Shown one piece after another: positions 1 to 31,632 of a stretch of DNA of 31,632 bases (positions are counted from its first letter, which is position 1; each line of letters opens with the position of its first letter). The notes under the pieces were generated by a model. It saw only the letters and a list, made by a program, of their open reading frames with translations, was not told the DNA's origin and ran no database searches. The DNA comes from a virus. The DNA lies in the IMG/VR virus record IMGVR_UViG_3300042397_001606, positions 1-31,632 of that record. One strand, 5' to 3'. The position numbers and the translations under genes are program-made.

Positions 1-13
1 GTCCGTTAGTGGC
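1..13. repeat. End of an attC-like site / start of cassette A
   Basis: GTTAGTGGC at 5-13 is the exact reverse complement of GCCACTAAC at 747-755, the other end of this cassette. This is the R'/R'' relation expected of an integron cassette. The four preceding bases (GTCC) resemble the C-ending spacer before GTTA in the other sites here (AGGAC, AAAAC, AAACC), so another attC-like site probably lies just to the left. That the site is truncated by the contig end is an inference. Confidence 0.55.
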
Positions 14-17
14 AAGG

Positions 18-482
18 CTAAAGAACGACACCGCTAAATAAGTCGGGAAGATTTTTAACATTGATTTTCTTTTTGTTTGAAGTATCAATACTATTAATCA
101 GCTTTTTTATTTCATTAATGTATTCTTTTTTGTCCCATCCTTCGATTTCGCAAACCATCAAATCAAACATTATTTCTTTCAATAAATGTGCTTGAAACTT
201 TTTTCTTGCAAGTGTGTTTACCGTATTTGCAGGGTAAACATAATCCTCTTGTATTTCTTTCTTTTCAACTATTTTAGTTTGTTTTATTGGTTCAATAAAT
301 TCAATGCGTGGTGTTCCTTTTCTAATTGTTTTTACCAACGCTCTTTTGCCACCATTTAAAACACTTTTTCCATCAGTGCAAAAATCATATCCACTTAAAG
401 GAGAGCCACAAGAATTATCTACTTTCCAACCTATCGGCAAAACTTCCAAAACTTCCCAATCTTTATATTTATTCATCTCCAT
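18..482 (-). CDS. Cassette A protein 2, unknown function
   Basis: A 154-aa protein (152 aa if the second ATG at 478-476 is used). I do not recognise it. The N-terminal half holds a compact W-E-V-L...GSPLSGYDFCTDGKSVLNGGKRALV stretch (broken here: GSPLSGYDF, then TDGKSVLNGGKRALV) that looks like a folded small domain; the rest is charged and helical, with KEYINEIKKLI. No signal peptide or membrane segment. Its start overlaps the end of the upstream 83-aa gene, so the two are probably co-translated within one cassette. The stop codon lies directly beside the GTTAGTGGC cassette end, typical of tight cassette packing. Confidence 0.7.
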   Translation of the reverse strand: MEMNKYKDWEVLEVLPIGWKVDNSCGSPLSGYDFCTDGKSVLNGGKRALVKTIRKGTPRIEFIEPIKQTKIVEKKEIQEDYVYPANTVNTLARKKFQAHLLKEIMFDLMVCEIEGWDKKEYINEIKKLINSIDTSNKKKINVKNLPDLFSGVVL

Positions 483-720
483 CTTTATTAAATTGTGATA
501 TAAAATTTTCTACTTTATCATTTAGTAGTTTATAATCATTTTTTACTTCTTTTAATTTATTTTGATAATACAATAATGCTTCAATATAAGCTTCTTGCTC
601 TGTTATAGCTCTCATACTTATATTCATTCCAATAACATAATCGTATAAATAATAACCATCAGTACATTCGTGTAATGAAAGAGTATCAATCTTAAAAACT
701 TTTCTAATTATTTTTGACAT
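469..720 (-). CDS. Cassette A protein 1, unknown function
   Basis: An 83-aa protein with an N-terminal part rich in aromatic residues (TDGYYLYDYVIG) and a charged, probably coiled-coil C-terminal half (QNKLKEVKNDYKLLNDKVENF). It is not recognised. It starts about 27 bases inside the cassette end and overlaps the following gene by 14 bases, so cassette A carries a two-gene unit. No promoter of the TAnnTTTG type is visible upstream, so it probably depends on transcription entering from the neighbouring gene. Confidence 0.65.
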   Translation of the reverse strand: MSKIIRKVFKIDTLSLHECTDGYYLYDYVIGMNISMRAITEQEAYIEALLYYQNKLKEVKNDYKLLNDKVENFISQFNKDGDE

Positions 721-746
721 TATCTTTAAGTTTTGTGAAAAGCCCA

Positions 747-883
747 GCCACTAACAGCGTGTATAAAAAATGGCGGGTTTATCGATTAATTTAAAGTTCA
801 GTAATTATATCAAAGTTATGCGTTTGCTGAAAGTTTTGGAGTTATAATCCGCCACTTCTTATACACGCAGGACGTTATAATAC
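747..883. repeat. attC-like recombination site A
   Basis: An imperfect palindrome of about 130 bp. Outer box GCCACTAAC (747-755), one spacer base, left stem GCGTGTATAA (757-766), inner stem TGGCGG (771-776), a variable loop, inner stem CCGCCA (849-854), right stem TTATACACGC (859-868), a 5-base spacer AGGAC, then GTTATAATAC (874-883). The plan R''-stem-loop-stem-R' ending in GTT matches integron attC sites of the long Vibrio-repeat type. R' overlaps the stop codon of the DnaA-like gene. The predicted crossover is between G874 and T875. The call as attC is inference from architecture. Confidence 0.6.
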
Positions 884-999
884 TTTCTTCCCAGTATAAG
901 CAGTTAATCGCAAAATTGCACTTTCAACTTTTCTAAATTTATCTGACCTATCTTTTAACCATAAAATATCTTCAATAGTATCTTTTGAATGAATTACAG
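873..999. repeat. 127-bp exact repeat of the right contig end
   Basis: Bases 873-999 are identical to 31506-31632. The match starts at the attC/phage junction and runs into the 3' part of the DnaA-like gene. The length equals a common maximal assembler k-mer (127), so this is most likely an assembly overlap: the same phage sequence reached from two different left neighbours. It closes the phage into a circle of 30,633 bp. Confidence 0.85.
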
Positions 1000-1258
1000 T
1001 TGAATGGTCATAGAGATGTTCTGTAAGTTGGCCAATTGCTTTATAAGTATAAAGAGTAAACTTGTGACATAAATATTGAAATAATTGCCTTCCAAACATT
1101 ATATCTCTTTGCCTTGTATGTTTATTGATTTGTGGCCAACTAATATTTAAAGTTTCTTTTATAACCTCTTTTATTTTGATAATAATTAAATTATCGTTGG
1201 TTACTTTAGGCTGCTGATATTGCACGGCAGCCTTGTAAATGTTAAATGTTGGTGTCAT
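875..1258 (-). CDS. DnaA domain IV-like DNA-binding protein
   Basis: A 127-aa protein whose residues 40-100 resemble the DnaA C-terminal DNA-binding domain: a basic helix with RQRDIMFGRQL (50-60), then the signature-like DHSTVIHS (84-91), close to the DnaA-box reading motif of DnaA. It lacks the AAA+ ATPase domain, so it should bind DNA without ATP-driven origin melting. It overlaps the exonuclease gene by 17 bases and ends the operon that starts near 2480. Possible roles are phage origin recognition, repression, or competition with host DnaA; the choice between them is inference. Its stop codon is inside the attC-like R' box. Confidence 0.75.
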   Translation of the reverse strand: MTPTFNIYKAAVQYQQPKVTNDNLIIIKIKEVIKETLNISWPQINKHTRQRDIMFGRQLFQYLCHKFTLYTYKAIGQLTEHLYDHSTVIHSKDTIEDILWLKDRSDKFRKVESAILRLTAYTGKKVL

Positions 1259-5364: not shown

Positions 5365-5964
5365 TTATGTTTTTATTATGTTAAAACTTATAGGGAAGTC
5401 CCCTTTTAGTCCCCAACTTTTTGAAGGTGATAAAAATTGTTTTATTGTTTTTTCTCTTATTTTAGTTTCATTTCTAAACCTTTGATGAATTGTTGCTTGG
5501 TATAAATCAAGCTTATTAAAACCACAAAGAAGTACTGGCTTTAACTCTTCTAAAATTCTATAATAAAATAATGCAGTTGCATCATTACTATTATATTTTT
5601 CTTGTAGGTAATACTGTTTTGCAGGCAATTTAACATAAGGTGGATTGGTAAAAATTATTAATTTTTTCATTTTACTTGGTGGTAAAATTTCTGTTATATC
5701 ATCTTTCAAAAAATCTAACTGCCAAACTTGTAAGCCTTTATTTCTGCAAATTTCTACATCTTCCCATTCTAAAGTAGTTCCATATTTTTCAACTCCACTA
5801 GGCAAAGCTTCTAATAATGCACCTTCGCCACAGCATACATCCAAAAAAACAAATTCAGTAATATTTGGAACTACTTCTAAAATATATTTTACAGCTAAAT
5901 CAGCCCAAATTTTAGGTGTATAAAATGCCCCAGTTTCCTTTTGTCTTTCTTTTGAAAGTTCCAT
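5365..5964 (-). CDS. DNA adenine/cytosine-N4 methyltransferase (orphan)
   Basis: A 199-aa amino-methyltransferase. The SAM-binding loop LDVCCGEGALLEAL (41-54) and the catalytic NPPY (107-110) are clear, and the N-terminal ETGAFYTPKIWADL resembles the start of N6-adenine enzymes. It is short, with little room for a large target-recognition domain, and no restriction endonuclease lies next to it. It probably protects phage DNA from host restriction or marks it. It overlaps nothing large; the 40-aa gene ends directly at its start codon. Confidence 0.88.
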   Translation of the reverse strand: MELSKERQKETGAFYTPKIWADLAVKYILEVVPNITEFVFLDVCCGEGALLEALPSGVEKYGTTLEWEDVEICRNKGLQVWQLDFLKDDITEILPPSKMKKLIIFTNPPYVKLPAKQYYLQEKYNSNDATALFYYRILEELKPVLLCGFNKLDLYQATIHQRFRNETKIREKTIKQFLSPSKSWGLKGDFPISFNIIKT

Positions 5965-6087
5965 TTAATTGCGCTTTTTTGGTTTATGTTTTTCAGCTAA
6001 TCGTTCCTTTTGCTCACGTTCTTTTTTTGCGTGTTTTTCTTTGATTATAGCCACTATTCTAGCACGTTCTAAATCTACACTATCCAT
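5965..6087 (-). CDS. Small highly charged peptide, 40 aa
   Basis: ATG at 6087 overlaps the end of the 69-aa gene (stop at 6080); the stop codon TAA (5967-5965) directly adjoins the methyltransferase ATG. The peptide is almost all lysine, arginine and glutamate (AIIKEKHAKKEREQKERL) and predicted as one long helix. Tight packing on both sides supports translation. Function unknown. Confidence 0.55.
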   Translation of the reverse strand: MDSVDLERARIVAIIKEKHAKKEREQKERLAEKHKPKKRN

Positions 6088-6289
6088 TCTTTCTTTTTAA
6101 TATTTTAAATGTTGGATAGTTTTTAGGGACATTAAACCCTACTCCAATATAGACTGATGAATAAATCCAACACAAGCCAACACCTATTACTTTAATGTCA
6201 CCCCAATAAAGAACCCCTAATAAATAAGGAGTAATAGCTAAATCTTCATTATTATTTCTTGTATCTTGATAACCTCCAATTATTTTCAT
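6080..6289 (-). CDS. Small hydrophobic protein, unknown
   Basis: A 69-aa protein rich in glycine, valine, isoleucine and tyrosine, with weakly hydrophobic stretches (VLYWGDIKVIGVGLCWIY and VYIGVGFNVP) that look more like beta strands than membrane helices. It is the first gene behind the promoter at 6303 and overlaps the 40-aa gene. Not recognised. Confidence 0.6.
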   Translation of the reverse strand: MKIIGGYQDTRNNNEDLAITPYLLGVLYWGDIKVIGVGLCWIYSSVYIGVGFNVPKNYPTFKILKRKNG

Positions 6290-6302
6290 ATATTTTTTTC
6301 AG

Positions 6303-6317
6303 CAAAGATAGTAATAC
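6303..6317 (-). promoter_or_regulatory. Leftward promoter with half operator
   Basis: -7 box TATCTTTG (6310-6303), directly preceded by GTATTAC (6317-6311), the same half-site that abuts the -7 box at 4814 and 26753. The second half-site is not preserved, because the sequence runs into the terminator at 6327. It would drive 6289 to 4936. Confidence 0.5.
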
Positions 6318-6326
6318 TACTTAAAT

Positions 6327-11976: not shown

Positions 11977-13176
11977 CTATCCTACGTAAACTACTTTAGC
12001 TGATTGATAGAATACCCAACTTTCTAAAGTGAAAATTAAATCATAATAGAAGTTTTTAGCTGGTGCTGGTAATTTATCTACAACTGTATTTTGTAAGTCA
12101 CTTACTAAATCAGTAGCCCAAACAAAATCCATTGCATTGCCTGCTATCATTGCATTGCTAGGTAGTGGAACAAATTTAATCATTACACCTAAGTAGCTGA
12201 AATTATCACCCTCAATCATAAACGCATCTTTGAACGCTAAAGGATTGCTATTATATTGGCGAATGAACTTTTTACAATTCATAGGCATAAAGATAGTAGC
12301 ATACTGCATTGCTTCAGGATTGTTTAATAATTCATCAGGGAATTGAGCATATACTTTATCAACTTCATCTTTTATATTTGATGCTGTTAATGTAGTTCCT
12401 GCAACTTTAATACGTGTTCCAACTGCGAATGTGCCGGGTGTTACAGCATCACTATAAATTAATTTAGTTAATACACCATCAATATAACTTGAAGGAGCTG
12501 CTGCAACATAAGTTTTTTCGGCTGCGCCTACTGCATTTTGTGCCGTTCCTGCTGTTAATGCTGCTACTGCTGTTTTAGTTGCGCTAGTTGCACCATTCCA
12601 AAAATCAGACTCAACGCTTCTACTAGATTTGCCACCTACTAAGCCCATAATAGCTTCGGTAAATGGATTTTGTATAATGTTTGCTGCGCCTGGAGTTATA
12701 TCATTTGCGCCTGCTGTATTTCTAATAGTTTCGTAATCGAAAGTATCGTAAAACTCACGTTTTACTGGAGTTATTAAACGCTCTTCAACTGCCATTGTTC
12801 CCGTTGCTGTTGGAGTATTGCTATATGCTTGACTTGCTACTGTTGCACTTAAAGCACGAATACGGCCACTTCCTTTTATTTGGTCAAAGAAACGCACATA
12901 ACCTTCGCCTACTGTTTTATTTACAAAAATTAATTCAGTCAAAAATTCCTGATAAACTTCATCAGTAAATGTTGTTGGACCAGTAAATGTAATACCATAA
13001 GCAACGCCATTCATTTTGGCTTGTCTGCGAGCTTCACTATTAATTACAGTGAACAATAAAGATAGAGTAGTACCTAATACAATTGAATTGATATTAGACA
13101 TTCCGATTGAGTTAAAAGCTAATGAAAGGACTAAGCCAAACATTGCAATTGCTAAAAGTGAAATTATTTTTTTCAT
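11977..13176 (-). CDS. Major capsid protein (HK97-fold candidate)
   Basis: A 399-aa protein. Middle and C-terminal parts look like an HK97-type capsid subunit: FTEAIMGLVGGKSSRSVESD, the region NNPEAMQYATIFMPMNCKKF, IEGDNFSYLGVMIKFVPLPS, and a closing strand (ESWVFYQSAKVVYVG). It follows the protease/scaffold gene, as usual. Odd is the N-terminus: two strongly hydrophobic segments (3-22 and 28-46) before SEARRQAK, like a signal anchor. They may be a cleaved delta-domain equivalent or hold assembling heads at the membrane. Terminator directly downstream. Confidence 0.82.
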   Translation of the reverse strand: MKKIISLLAIAMFGLVLSLAFNSIGMSNINSIVLGTTLSLLFTVINSEARRQAKMNGVAYGITFTGPTTFTDEVYQEFLTELIFVNKTVGEGYVRFFDQIKGSGRIRALSATVASQAYSNTPTATGTMAVEERLITPVKREFYDTFDYETIRNTAGANDITPGAANIIQNPFTEAIMGLVGGKSSRSVESDFWNGATSATKTAVAALTAGTAQNAVGAAEKTYVAAAPSSYIDGVLTKLIYSDAVTPGTFAVGTRIKVAGTTLTASNIKDEVDKVYAQFPDELLNNPEAMQYATIFMPMNCKKFIRQYNSNPLAFKDAFMIEGDNFSYLGVMIKFVPLPSNAMIAGNAMDFVWATDLVSDLQNTVVDKLPAPAKNFYYDLIFTLESWVFYQSAKVVYVG

Positions 13177-30770: not shown

Positions 30771-30789
30771 TCTTATACTTTTTATTCGC

Positions 30790-30808
30790 CAATCTACAAG
30801 TTAGCACC
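30790..30808. other. Cassette insertion site on the phage (attI/attG-like)
   Basis: The phage sequence AATCTACAAG joins TTAGCACC, the start of cassette B1. Only a bare G|TT site is present, without the palindrome of an attC. Removing both cassettes rebuilds CTACAAG|TTATAATAC, which leaves the DnaA-like stop about 37 bases before the next ATG, normal spacing for this genome. Inferred target of attC x genomic-site recombination. Confidence 0.5.
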
Positions 30809-31039
30809 AATACTAAGACCGAAGTGCATCTAAGTCAAATCCCATTTCTTCTAACTTTGACCGAAGTGCAATTTCCCAACCTTCTTTTGGTCGTTCTAAA
30901 AAACGATATTCGCTATCGTAGATTAAGTCTTTCATTTCAGCTTCCTTAAAGCCACTGCTATGAACTGATGTGAAAACACAGTCAAAGCATTCGATTAATT
31001 GTTCTCTTGTTGGTTTCATAATAAAGTACTGGTGCTAAC
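30800..31039. mobile_element. Cassette B1
   Basis: Starts GTTAGCACCAATACT (30800-30814) and ends AGTACTGGTGCTAAC (31025-31039): inverted complementary ends over 15 bases with one mismatch. It carries one small gene on the minus strand and is followed by attC-like site B1. Gene orientation is opposite to the attC order suggested by the insertion site. Confidence 0.55.
30813..31019 (-). CDS. Cassette B1 protein, unknown
   Basis: A 68-aa acidic helical protein (PTREQLIECFDCVFTSVHSS, GFKEAEMKDLIYDSEYRFLE, EEMGFDLDALRS). Not recognised. It fills the cassette nearly completely: the stop codon overlaps the left cassette end and the ATG lies about 6 bases before the right inverted end. No promoter of its own is visible, so it relies on read-through from the DnaA-like gene. 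Small acidic cassette proteins can be inhibitors; no claim is made. Confidence 0.65.
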   Translation of the reverse strand: MKPTREQLIECFDCVFTSVHSSGFKEAEMKDLIYDSEYRFLERPKEGWEIALRSKLEEMGFDLDALRS

Positions 31040-31129
31040 AGCGTATATACAAGATACGCCTACAAGCATTTGTTTATAATTTTAAATTTCGTTAAGGCGT
31101 ACCTCGTATATACGCAAAACGTTATGTGC
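31031..31129. repeat. attC-like recombination site B1
   Basis: GGTGCTAAC (31031-31039), spacer A, stem GCGTATATAC (31041-31050), AAGATACGCC, variable loop, GGCGTA (31096-31101), stem GTATATACGC (31106-31115), spacer AAAAC, GTTATGTGC (31121-31129). Same plan as site A: 1-base left and 5-base right spacers and R' starting GTT. Confidence 0.6.
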
Positions 31130-31418
31130 AAGGCTATCAATCGTCATCACCTACAACCTCGTCTAACATTCCGACATAAACATCGCCACAATCTTTTTTG
31201 AACGGAATATTATTATCAATCAATGCTTGTTCAAAATCACATTGACAAAGGCAATAGTCCATTTCAATCGTATTGTGTCCAAATTCTTTTTCAGGCATAA
31301 ATCCAAAGTGTTCTAAAAACTGTCTTGGTGTTTCTATTTCTTTTTCGCCTCTGTTTATTACTACTATATTGCACATATATTTTAAATTTAATTGTTAATA
31401 AAAAGCCCAGCACATAAC
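31121..31418. mobile_element. Cassette B2
   Basis: Starts GTTATGTGC (31121-31129) and ends with its exact complement GCACATAAC (31410-31418). The start GTTATGTGCAAGGCTA resembles that of cassette A (GTTAGTGGCAAGGCTA), and both end regions share AAAAGCCCAGC before the R'' box, showing a common cassette family. One small gene. Confidence 0.55.
31137..31376 (-). CDS. Cassette B2 protein, unknown
   Basis: A 79-aa acidic protein: CNIVVINRGEKEIETPRQFL, EHFGFMPEKEFGHNTIEMDY, CLCQCDFEQALIDNNIPFKK, DEVVGDDD. Alpha/beta composition with four cysteines, a strongly acidic end. Not recognised. Only gene of its cassette; no own promoter seen. Acidic, DNA-mimic-like ends occur in phage anti-defence proteins, but nothing here proves it. 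Confidence 0.65.
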   Translation of the reverse strand: MCNIVVINRGEKEIETPRQFLEHFGFMPEKEFGHNTIEMDYCLCQCDFEQALIDNNIPFKKDCGDVYVGMLDEVVGDDD

Positions 31419-31516
31419 AGCACCTTAGCGTCAGTTTTTGGCTATTTAGTTTATCGGTAACTTGAAAATTTCGGTAAGCCAAAAACCGAACGCCAAGCTG
31501 CAAACCGTTATAATAC
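31410..31516. repeat. attC-like recombination site B2
   Basis: GCACATAAC (31410-31418), then AGC-ACC-TTAGCGT, TTTTTGGCT (31435-31443), variable loop, AGCCAAAAA (31477-31485), ACGCCAA-GCT, spacer ending AAACC, GTTATAATAC (31507-31516). The arms pair with one mismatch. It ends at the same phage base as site A, in a different arm sequence. Confidence 0.58.
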
Positions 31517-31632
31517 TTTCTTCCCAGTATAAGCAGTTAATCGCAAAATTGCACTTTCAACTTTTCTAAATTTATCTGACCTATCTTTTAACCATAAAAT
31601 ATCTTCAATAGTATCTTTTGAATGAATTACAG
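31506..31632 (-). pseudogene. Partial copy of the DnaA-like gene (contig overlap)
   Basis: Identical to 873-999, holding the last 41 codons or so of the DnaA-like gene. It is cut by the contig end and is best read as the same gene seen a second time on a circular molecule, not a second gene. Confidence 0.8.

Follow-up and report, generated by a model that had tools for sequence, protein, structure and literature searches.

Clusters of attC sites without an integrase (CALINs) have been reported in virulent phages, including Polaribacter phage P12002L, where the cargo often consists of methyltransferases and where several of the attC sites were recombined by IntI1; that study proposed off-target or illegitimate recombination and called same-direction arrays typical (Qi et al. 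2023, PMC9892861). Such clusters are therefore not new, and an earlier note on the DNA studied here, whose author was aware of no described phage of this kind, is to be corrected in this respect. The arrays analyzed here are like those CALINs in having attC sites and cassettes, often with methyltransferases, in virulent phages that lack an integrase, but stand apart through an attI-like site of the phage, turnover of single cassettes between isolates, and open reading frames (ORFs) that are systematically reversed. Phage attI, reversed cassettes and one-cassette turnover appear to be new: the literature searched, which included few subscription journals and is to that extent weak evidence, contains no description of a phage attI belonging to attC clusters, nor of phage isolates that differ by the turnover of one cassette, nor of the systematic reversal or a Bacteroidota platform based on patch-less integrases. 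Sedentary chromosomal integrons share with the phage locus an attI followed by attC-tagged cassettes, R'/R'' complementarity and a break at G|TT, whereas the window phage lacks an integrase in cis and has short arrays whose ORFs run antiparallel to attC. CTX phage and similar XerCD-dependent phages also have no recombinase of their own and rely on a host tyrosine recombinase acting on folded single-stranded DNA; however, the whole CTX phage integrates at dif, while here single genes would enter and leave the phage genome, and attI and attC account for the junctions.

The window, i.e., the whole stretch of DNA that was analyzed, is an entire IMG/VR record of 31,632 bases. We found an identical 127-nt repeat at positions 873..999 and 31506..31632, to the left of which the two arms are unrelated and have nothing in common. 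Copy 1 leads into the phage arm (from TT 875) and copy 2 closes a phage circle of about 30.6 kb; 127 nt is a common de Bruijn k-mer length, and the repeat appears to be a single graph node entered by two edges. The shared sequence starts at CGTTATAATAC, where two attC-like palindromes have their right edge. The earlier note had placed the switch of arms exactly at the integron crossover point, and the switch does fall on the CGTTA core at the attC edge, but the shared stretch starts one base ahead of the R' GTT, since the invariant CGTTA core forms the end of both attC sites. The contig itself starts four bases ahead of cassette A (window 1-4), which hints at a second branch point with variable neighbors upstream of cassette A as well. 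An exact-pattern search of IMG/VR for the phage arm returned no match, nor did an Rfam scan of the window.

Cassette A (6..874, plus strand by attC polarity) extends from the TT of its start GTTAGTGGC to the G of CG|TTATAATAC, with GCCACTAAC as its R'' box. It carries two ORFs on the minus strand, one of 154 aa with no family (18..482) and one of 83 aa assigned to PHROG 19040, of unknown function (469..720), and its attC including both R boxes spans 745..883 on the plus strand. The phage gene to the right of the array encodes a protein with a DnaA C-terminal domain (875..1258, minus strand; PF08299). At the other end of the record, an 80-aa phage gene (30528..30770, minus strand) lies to the left of the phage attI-like site TTCGCCAATCTACAAG (30785..30800, plus strand; crossover after G 30800) and of two further plus-strand cassettes. 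Cassette B1 (30801..31121; start GTTAGCACC, R'' GGTGCTAAC) holds a 68-aa ORF on the minus strand (30813..31019) and a plus-strand attC at 31029..31130, and cassette B2 (31122..31507; start GTTATGTGC, R'' GCACATAAC) holds a 79-aa ORF on the minus strand (31137..31376) and a plus-strand attC at 31408..31516; neither ORF has a family. For all three window palindromes the cassette start is complementary to its own R'', which is what insertion of a cassette as a circle leaves behind, while the R' boxes (GTTAGTG, GTTATGT, GTTAGCA and GTTATAA) keep only GTTA of the strict GTTRRRY. The DNA of cassettes A and B had no meaningful match to named phages. Profile searches gave no match to TIGR02249, PF00589 or PF00239 in the window record, hence no integrase in cis, and no tyrosine or serine recombinase domain in the window, L004, L006, L008, P12002L or mumin6-1. 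The earlier statement that there is no integrase on the phage is thus borne out; the phage, with at least two attC sites and no integrase, carries a CALIN, and a recombinase must act in trans.

We consider it very probable that the phage carries an integrase-less integron, exchanging cassettes at a fixed attI-like site by means of an enzyme supplied in trans. The site at 30785-30800 would receive cassettes made of one or two small ORFs and an attC, through attI x attC and attC x attC recombination with exchange between the G and the TT of the CGTTA core, and population variants would differ in that B2 adjoins the phage arm in one and cassette A in another. The enzyme would most likely be a XerA-like tyrosine integrase of the Bacteroidota host or of a co-resident prophage, and the cassettes would belong to a phage class in which the ORF is reversed relative to attC. 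Their cargo would be accessory, in relatives including several DNA methyltransferases that plausibly shield phage DNA from restriction. The sequence itself shows the site, the cassettes, their variation and reversal and the lack of a detectable recombinase, whereas the enzyme, its action on phage DNA and the benefit are inferred. Counted against this explanation were the non-strict R' boxes and, as described below, the misfit of the docking site in one group of cultured phages, the lack of an IntI patch in the XerA-like protein and the reversal, for which an attC-borne promoter was not supported.

An alignment of 35 long-size-class attC sites from viral contigs and from Bacteroidota and Chlorobiota genomes has TAACA and CGTTA as invariant elements while the remainder varies. 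The stems covary (score of 0.636 versus 0.150 in shuffled alignments, with 0 of 500 shuffles reaching it), and the covariance model and pair counts give the R''-L''-loop-L'-R' fold. The model built from these 35 sites recovered all three window attC sites, with 107 bits for A (itself in the training set) and, outside the training set, 70 bits for B1 and 38 bits for B2 (E 1.5e-4); the model is home-made, with rough E-values and training partly on phage sites of the same search. It found no attC match in three relatives without an array. The short attC pattern yields many chance matches in genomes and viral contigs and needed filtering, and a strict cassette detector, which looks for a palindrome closing a segment whose start is complementary to its R'', gave 139 matches in 2.48 Mb versus 1 in the reversed sequence. 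Along with the R'/R'' matches, these results support the earlier suggestion that the three palindromes are attC-type sites.

One phage site holds different cassettes in the window and in three uncultured relatives (L004, L006 and L008), as had been proposed. In L004, whose DnaA-like protein is 96% identical to that of the window, identical phage flanks (CGCCAATCTACAAG|TT and CG|TTATAATAC) enclose two different cassettes, the first of which encodes a probable DNA methyltransferase as judged by sequence. This array is bounded by phage genes on either side, including a 92% identical version of the 80-aa gene, for which L006 has a similar small gene as the counterpart. Further cassette sets adjoin the DnaA-like gene in L006 (three cassettes) and L008 (at least five cassettes), and L005, L007 and L010 have no array, with the start codon of the neighboring gene overlapping the stop of the DnaA-like gene. 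The whole of cassette A (window 5-878) matches positions 7164-8045 of L224 at 83% identity end to end, on a contig that has genes for terminase, portal, capsid and tape-measure proteins (hallmark genes served to check the IMG/VR labels of some records), and this recurrence of the entire unit in a phage contig speaks against cassette A being simply host DNA. Other viral contigs match cassette A in the attC and leader only. The viral contig L009, a further relative, has no array at its DnaA-like gene and carries one elsewhere, on the minus strand near 12761, behind another attI-like site.

The sequence preceding the first cassette was compared across 23 viral genomes and contigs, and a motif of roughly nCGnnTAnnnnnnAG|TT emerged in unrelated phages. 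With a matrix trained on the other phages (leave-one-out), the window site ranks first among 1401 GTT positions, and in 13 of the 23 cases the attI-like site is the top-ranked position of its contig; the site of the cultured Flavobacterium (Moomin) phages falls outside the motif (rank 228 of 1680), and a few other sites also misfit. Applied to four host attI sites, the phage matrix placed L347, L348 and L358 in the top 0.1% and L354 only in the top 2.5%. By its motif rank and its likeness to host sites, the docking site in the phage can be classed as attI-like. A likeness to attI1 is apparent by eye but is not claimed, because 20% of random GTT sites score equally with the phage matrix.

Cassette polarity, read by a single sequence rule (TAACA ... 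CGTTA), separates host from phage arrays. The ORF is parallel to attC in 34 of 34 clear host cassettes (14+10+12 minus two duplicates) and antiparallel in 98 of 101 clear viral cassettes from 46 contigs. All window cassettes are antiparallel and do not follow the usual CALIN direction; the same holds for 24 of 24 distinct cassettes in isolates, and in mumin6-1 the annotated array genes are on the minus strand and the attC sites on the plus strand. The pattern used to gather viral loci favors one attC subclass, and contigs fetched by protein homology instead of the attC pattern served as a safeguard; their clear cassettes are reversed in 12 of 12 cases. The longest ORF has its first ATG within the attC in 31 of the 98 reversed cassettes, such that the gene must travel with the attC on its 5' side, which backs the polarity independently of the motif rule. 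The reversal in phages suggests a separate phage pool of mobile genes. A promoter within attC serving the reversed ORF is not supported, as the Bacteroidetes TAnnTTTG motif occurs on the ORF strand in 4 of 98 cassettes versus 7.4 expected. On the attC strand of host sites (L088, L095, L096, L127 and L146) this motif is enriched (6 of 14 versus 1.4 expected) and points into the next cassette.

Bacteroidota hosts do carry matching integrons, in line with the host integron invoked in the earlier note. Of 395 Bacteroidia genomes, 233 have attC sites of this class but only 1 has a canonical IntI above the curated cut-off, which suggests that the integrons of Bacteroidota are operated by a patch-less XerA-like integrase, one that standard integron finders would overlook. 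In Flavobacterium palustre (L096), an array follows a 347-aa tyrosine recombinase; Flavobacteriaceae arrays of this kind are like the phage locus in attC class and in a similar attI sequence, but differ from it in having the integrase in cis and ORFs parallel to attC. Of 199 Flavobacteriaceae genomes, 105 encode relatives of this recombinase (E <= 1e-60), in many cases followed soon after the stop codon by a TATAAACAAG|TT-like site. At 15 of the 20 XerA-like integrase loci examined, attC matches, some of them weak, lie downstream of the gene and share its orientation. Its best solved relative is XerA (5hxy), to which it aligns without length change, and its match to IntI4 comes in two pieces. 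With a TIGR02249 score of 200.8 bits versus the cut-off of 265, the middle of the model unmatched and the IntI-specific insertion missing, it falls outside the IntI family and has no IntI patch. The gene neighborhood points to recombination of attC by this XerA-like protein, and a XerA-like integrase without the IntI patch is the best candidate for the enzyme in Flavobacteriaceae. At L286 3074-3442 (CP012155.1), another XerA-like integrase is adjoined by a minimum of four ~87-bp repeats in which CACTAAC and GTTAGCGCG boxes face each other.

The integrase could alternatively come from a co-resident temperate phage and not from a host chromosomal integron, which we regard as possible but rather unlikely. 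In one phage record (G008), a gene for a XerA-like integrase immediately precedes an attI-like site with reversed cassettes, and the phage pool seems to be a separate one, given that every clear host cassette is parallel; on the other hand, this was the only such phage among 15 viral records tested, and phage and host attI look alike. The record (L187 7738 onwards; L293 12885-13685) is a 50-kb contig with terminase and portal genes and nine cassettes, of which the clear ones are reversed, and is possibly a complete phage integron. We give about even chances to a broader proposal, in which Bacteroidota phages own a distinct integron branch consisting of a phage attI and a phage-only reversed pool, moved by patch-less XerA-like integrases that also run host integrons of this class, and in which cassette polarity separates the two pools.

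Searching with the array of L187 led to the Moomin phages of Flavobacterium LMO6 and LMO9 (Nilsson et al. 2020, PMC7077304), a paper that makes no mention of an integron, cassette or integrase. These phages are like the window phage in cassette class, in the use of one phage site, in reversed ORFs and in methyltransferase cargo, but belong to another phage genus and use another phage site. Their arrays of roughly 8-14 cassettes begin at one site, ATATTGTAG|TT, and the first cassettes differ among the genomes compared, which span Muminvirus, Lillamyvirus and Hattifnattvirus. Between mumin6-1 and 6-3, sniff9-1 and 9-2, and snork6-1 and 6-2, the differences of 506, 439 and 342 bp, respectively, each equal a single complete cassette, and both breaks fall in the CGTTA core or, where a first cassette is concerned, at the phage attI. 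The last border also varies, with sniff and mumin joining different attC sites to ACGTTA|AACCAACTCC, as in the window. Because these are deposited complete genomes of isolates, mixing during metagenome assembly cannot explain the differences.

Such gains and losses might instead arise by general phage recombination or by hairpin slippage at the 5-nt CGTTA core, with no site-specific integrase involved. Hairpins favor slippage, the phage encodes a NinG-type junction endonuclease, and the isolate pairs differ by the presence or absence of one cassette; nevertheless, flanking attC sites share little besides the core, unrelated first cassettes enter one phage site, and a conserved attI-like motif that matches host attI reaches 16 nt upstream, which together make this mechanism improbable. 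Even less credence is due to an assembly chimera, in which the assembler would have joined cassette A to the phage by error at the repeat: the window is a metagenome contig with an overlap of a usual k-mer length, but the break coincides with a cassette border, no part of cassette A is missing, and border variation of this kind is also present in phage isolates. Of the two readings offered earlier, that of different cassettes at one phage site stands, whereas the other, with the phage itself forming a 30-kb cassette of a host integron array and cassette A being host DNA, is scarcely credible: both phage borders do lie at G|TT positions, but there is no attC at the right-hand phage end, the L004 array is flanked by phage genes on both sides, cassette A recurs in the phage contig L224, and phage isolates hold arrays internally.

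With cassette exchange at a phage attI-like site and the enzyme in trans, attC clusters in phages would no longer be a mere curiosity but would look like a functioning means of gene exchange that has a docking site, whose turnover is visible in phage isolates and whose likely use is the acquisition of methyltransferases. If host integrases serve phages in trans, an adaptive platform of the host also equips its predators. The reversal raises a testable question, namely what separates the phage and host cassette pools, and an integrase without the patch is relevant to the recognition of folded attC sites. Three cassette proteins of mumin6-1 match N6_N4_Mtase, and the LMO9 phages that plated 1,000-10,000-fold lower on LMO6, with morran9-1 and lillamy9-1 as the two named examples, are reported to lack one methyltransferase (Nilsson et al. 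2020, PMC7077304). One mumin6-1 methyltransferase cassette, at 5425-6320, is present in most LMO6 isolates, and lillamy and morran phages (including lillamy9-1 and morran9-1), hattifnatt, stinky and snusmum are absent among its matches; as snusmum6 was isolated on LMO6, the correlation of this cassette with LMO6 is imperfect at the DNA level. Across the deposited Moomin genomes (MN812206-MN812241), the variable methyltransferase region is the cassette array, e.g., at L305 1648-8232. The lengths of lillamy9-1, 9-6 and 9-7 differ by 261-737 bp, and these genomes may hold further one-cassette differences.
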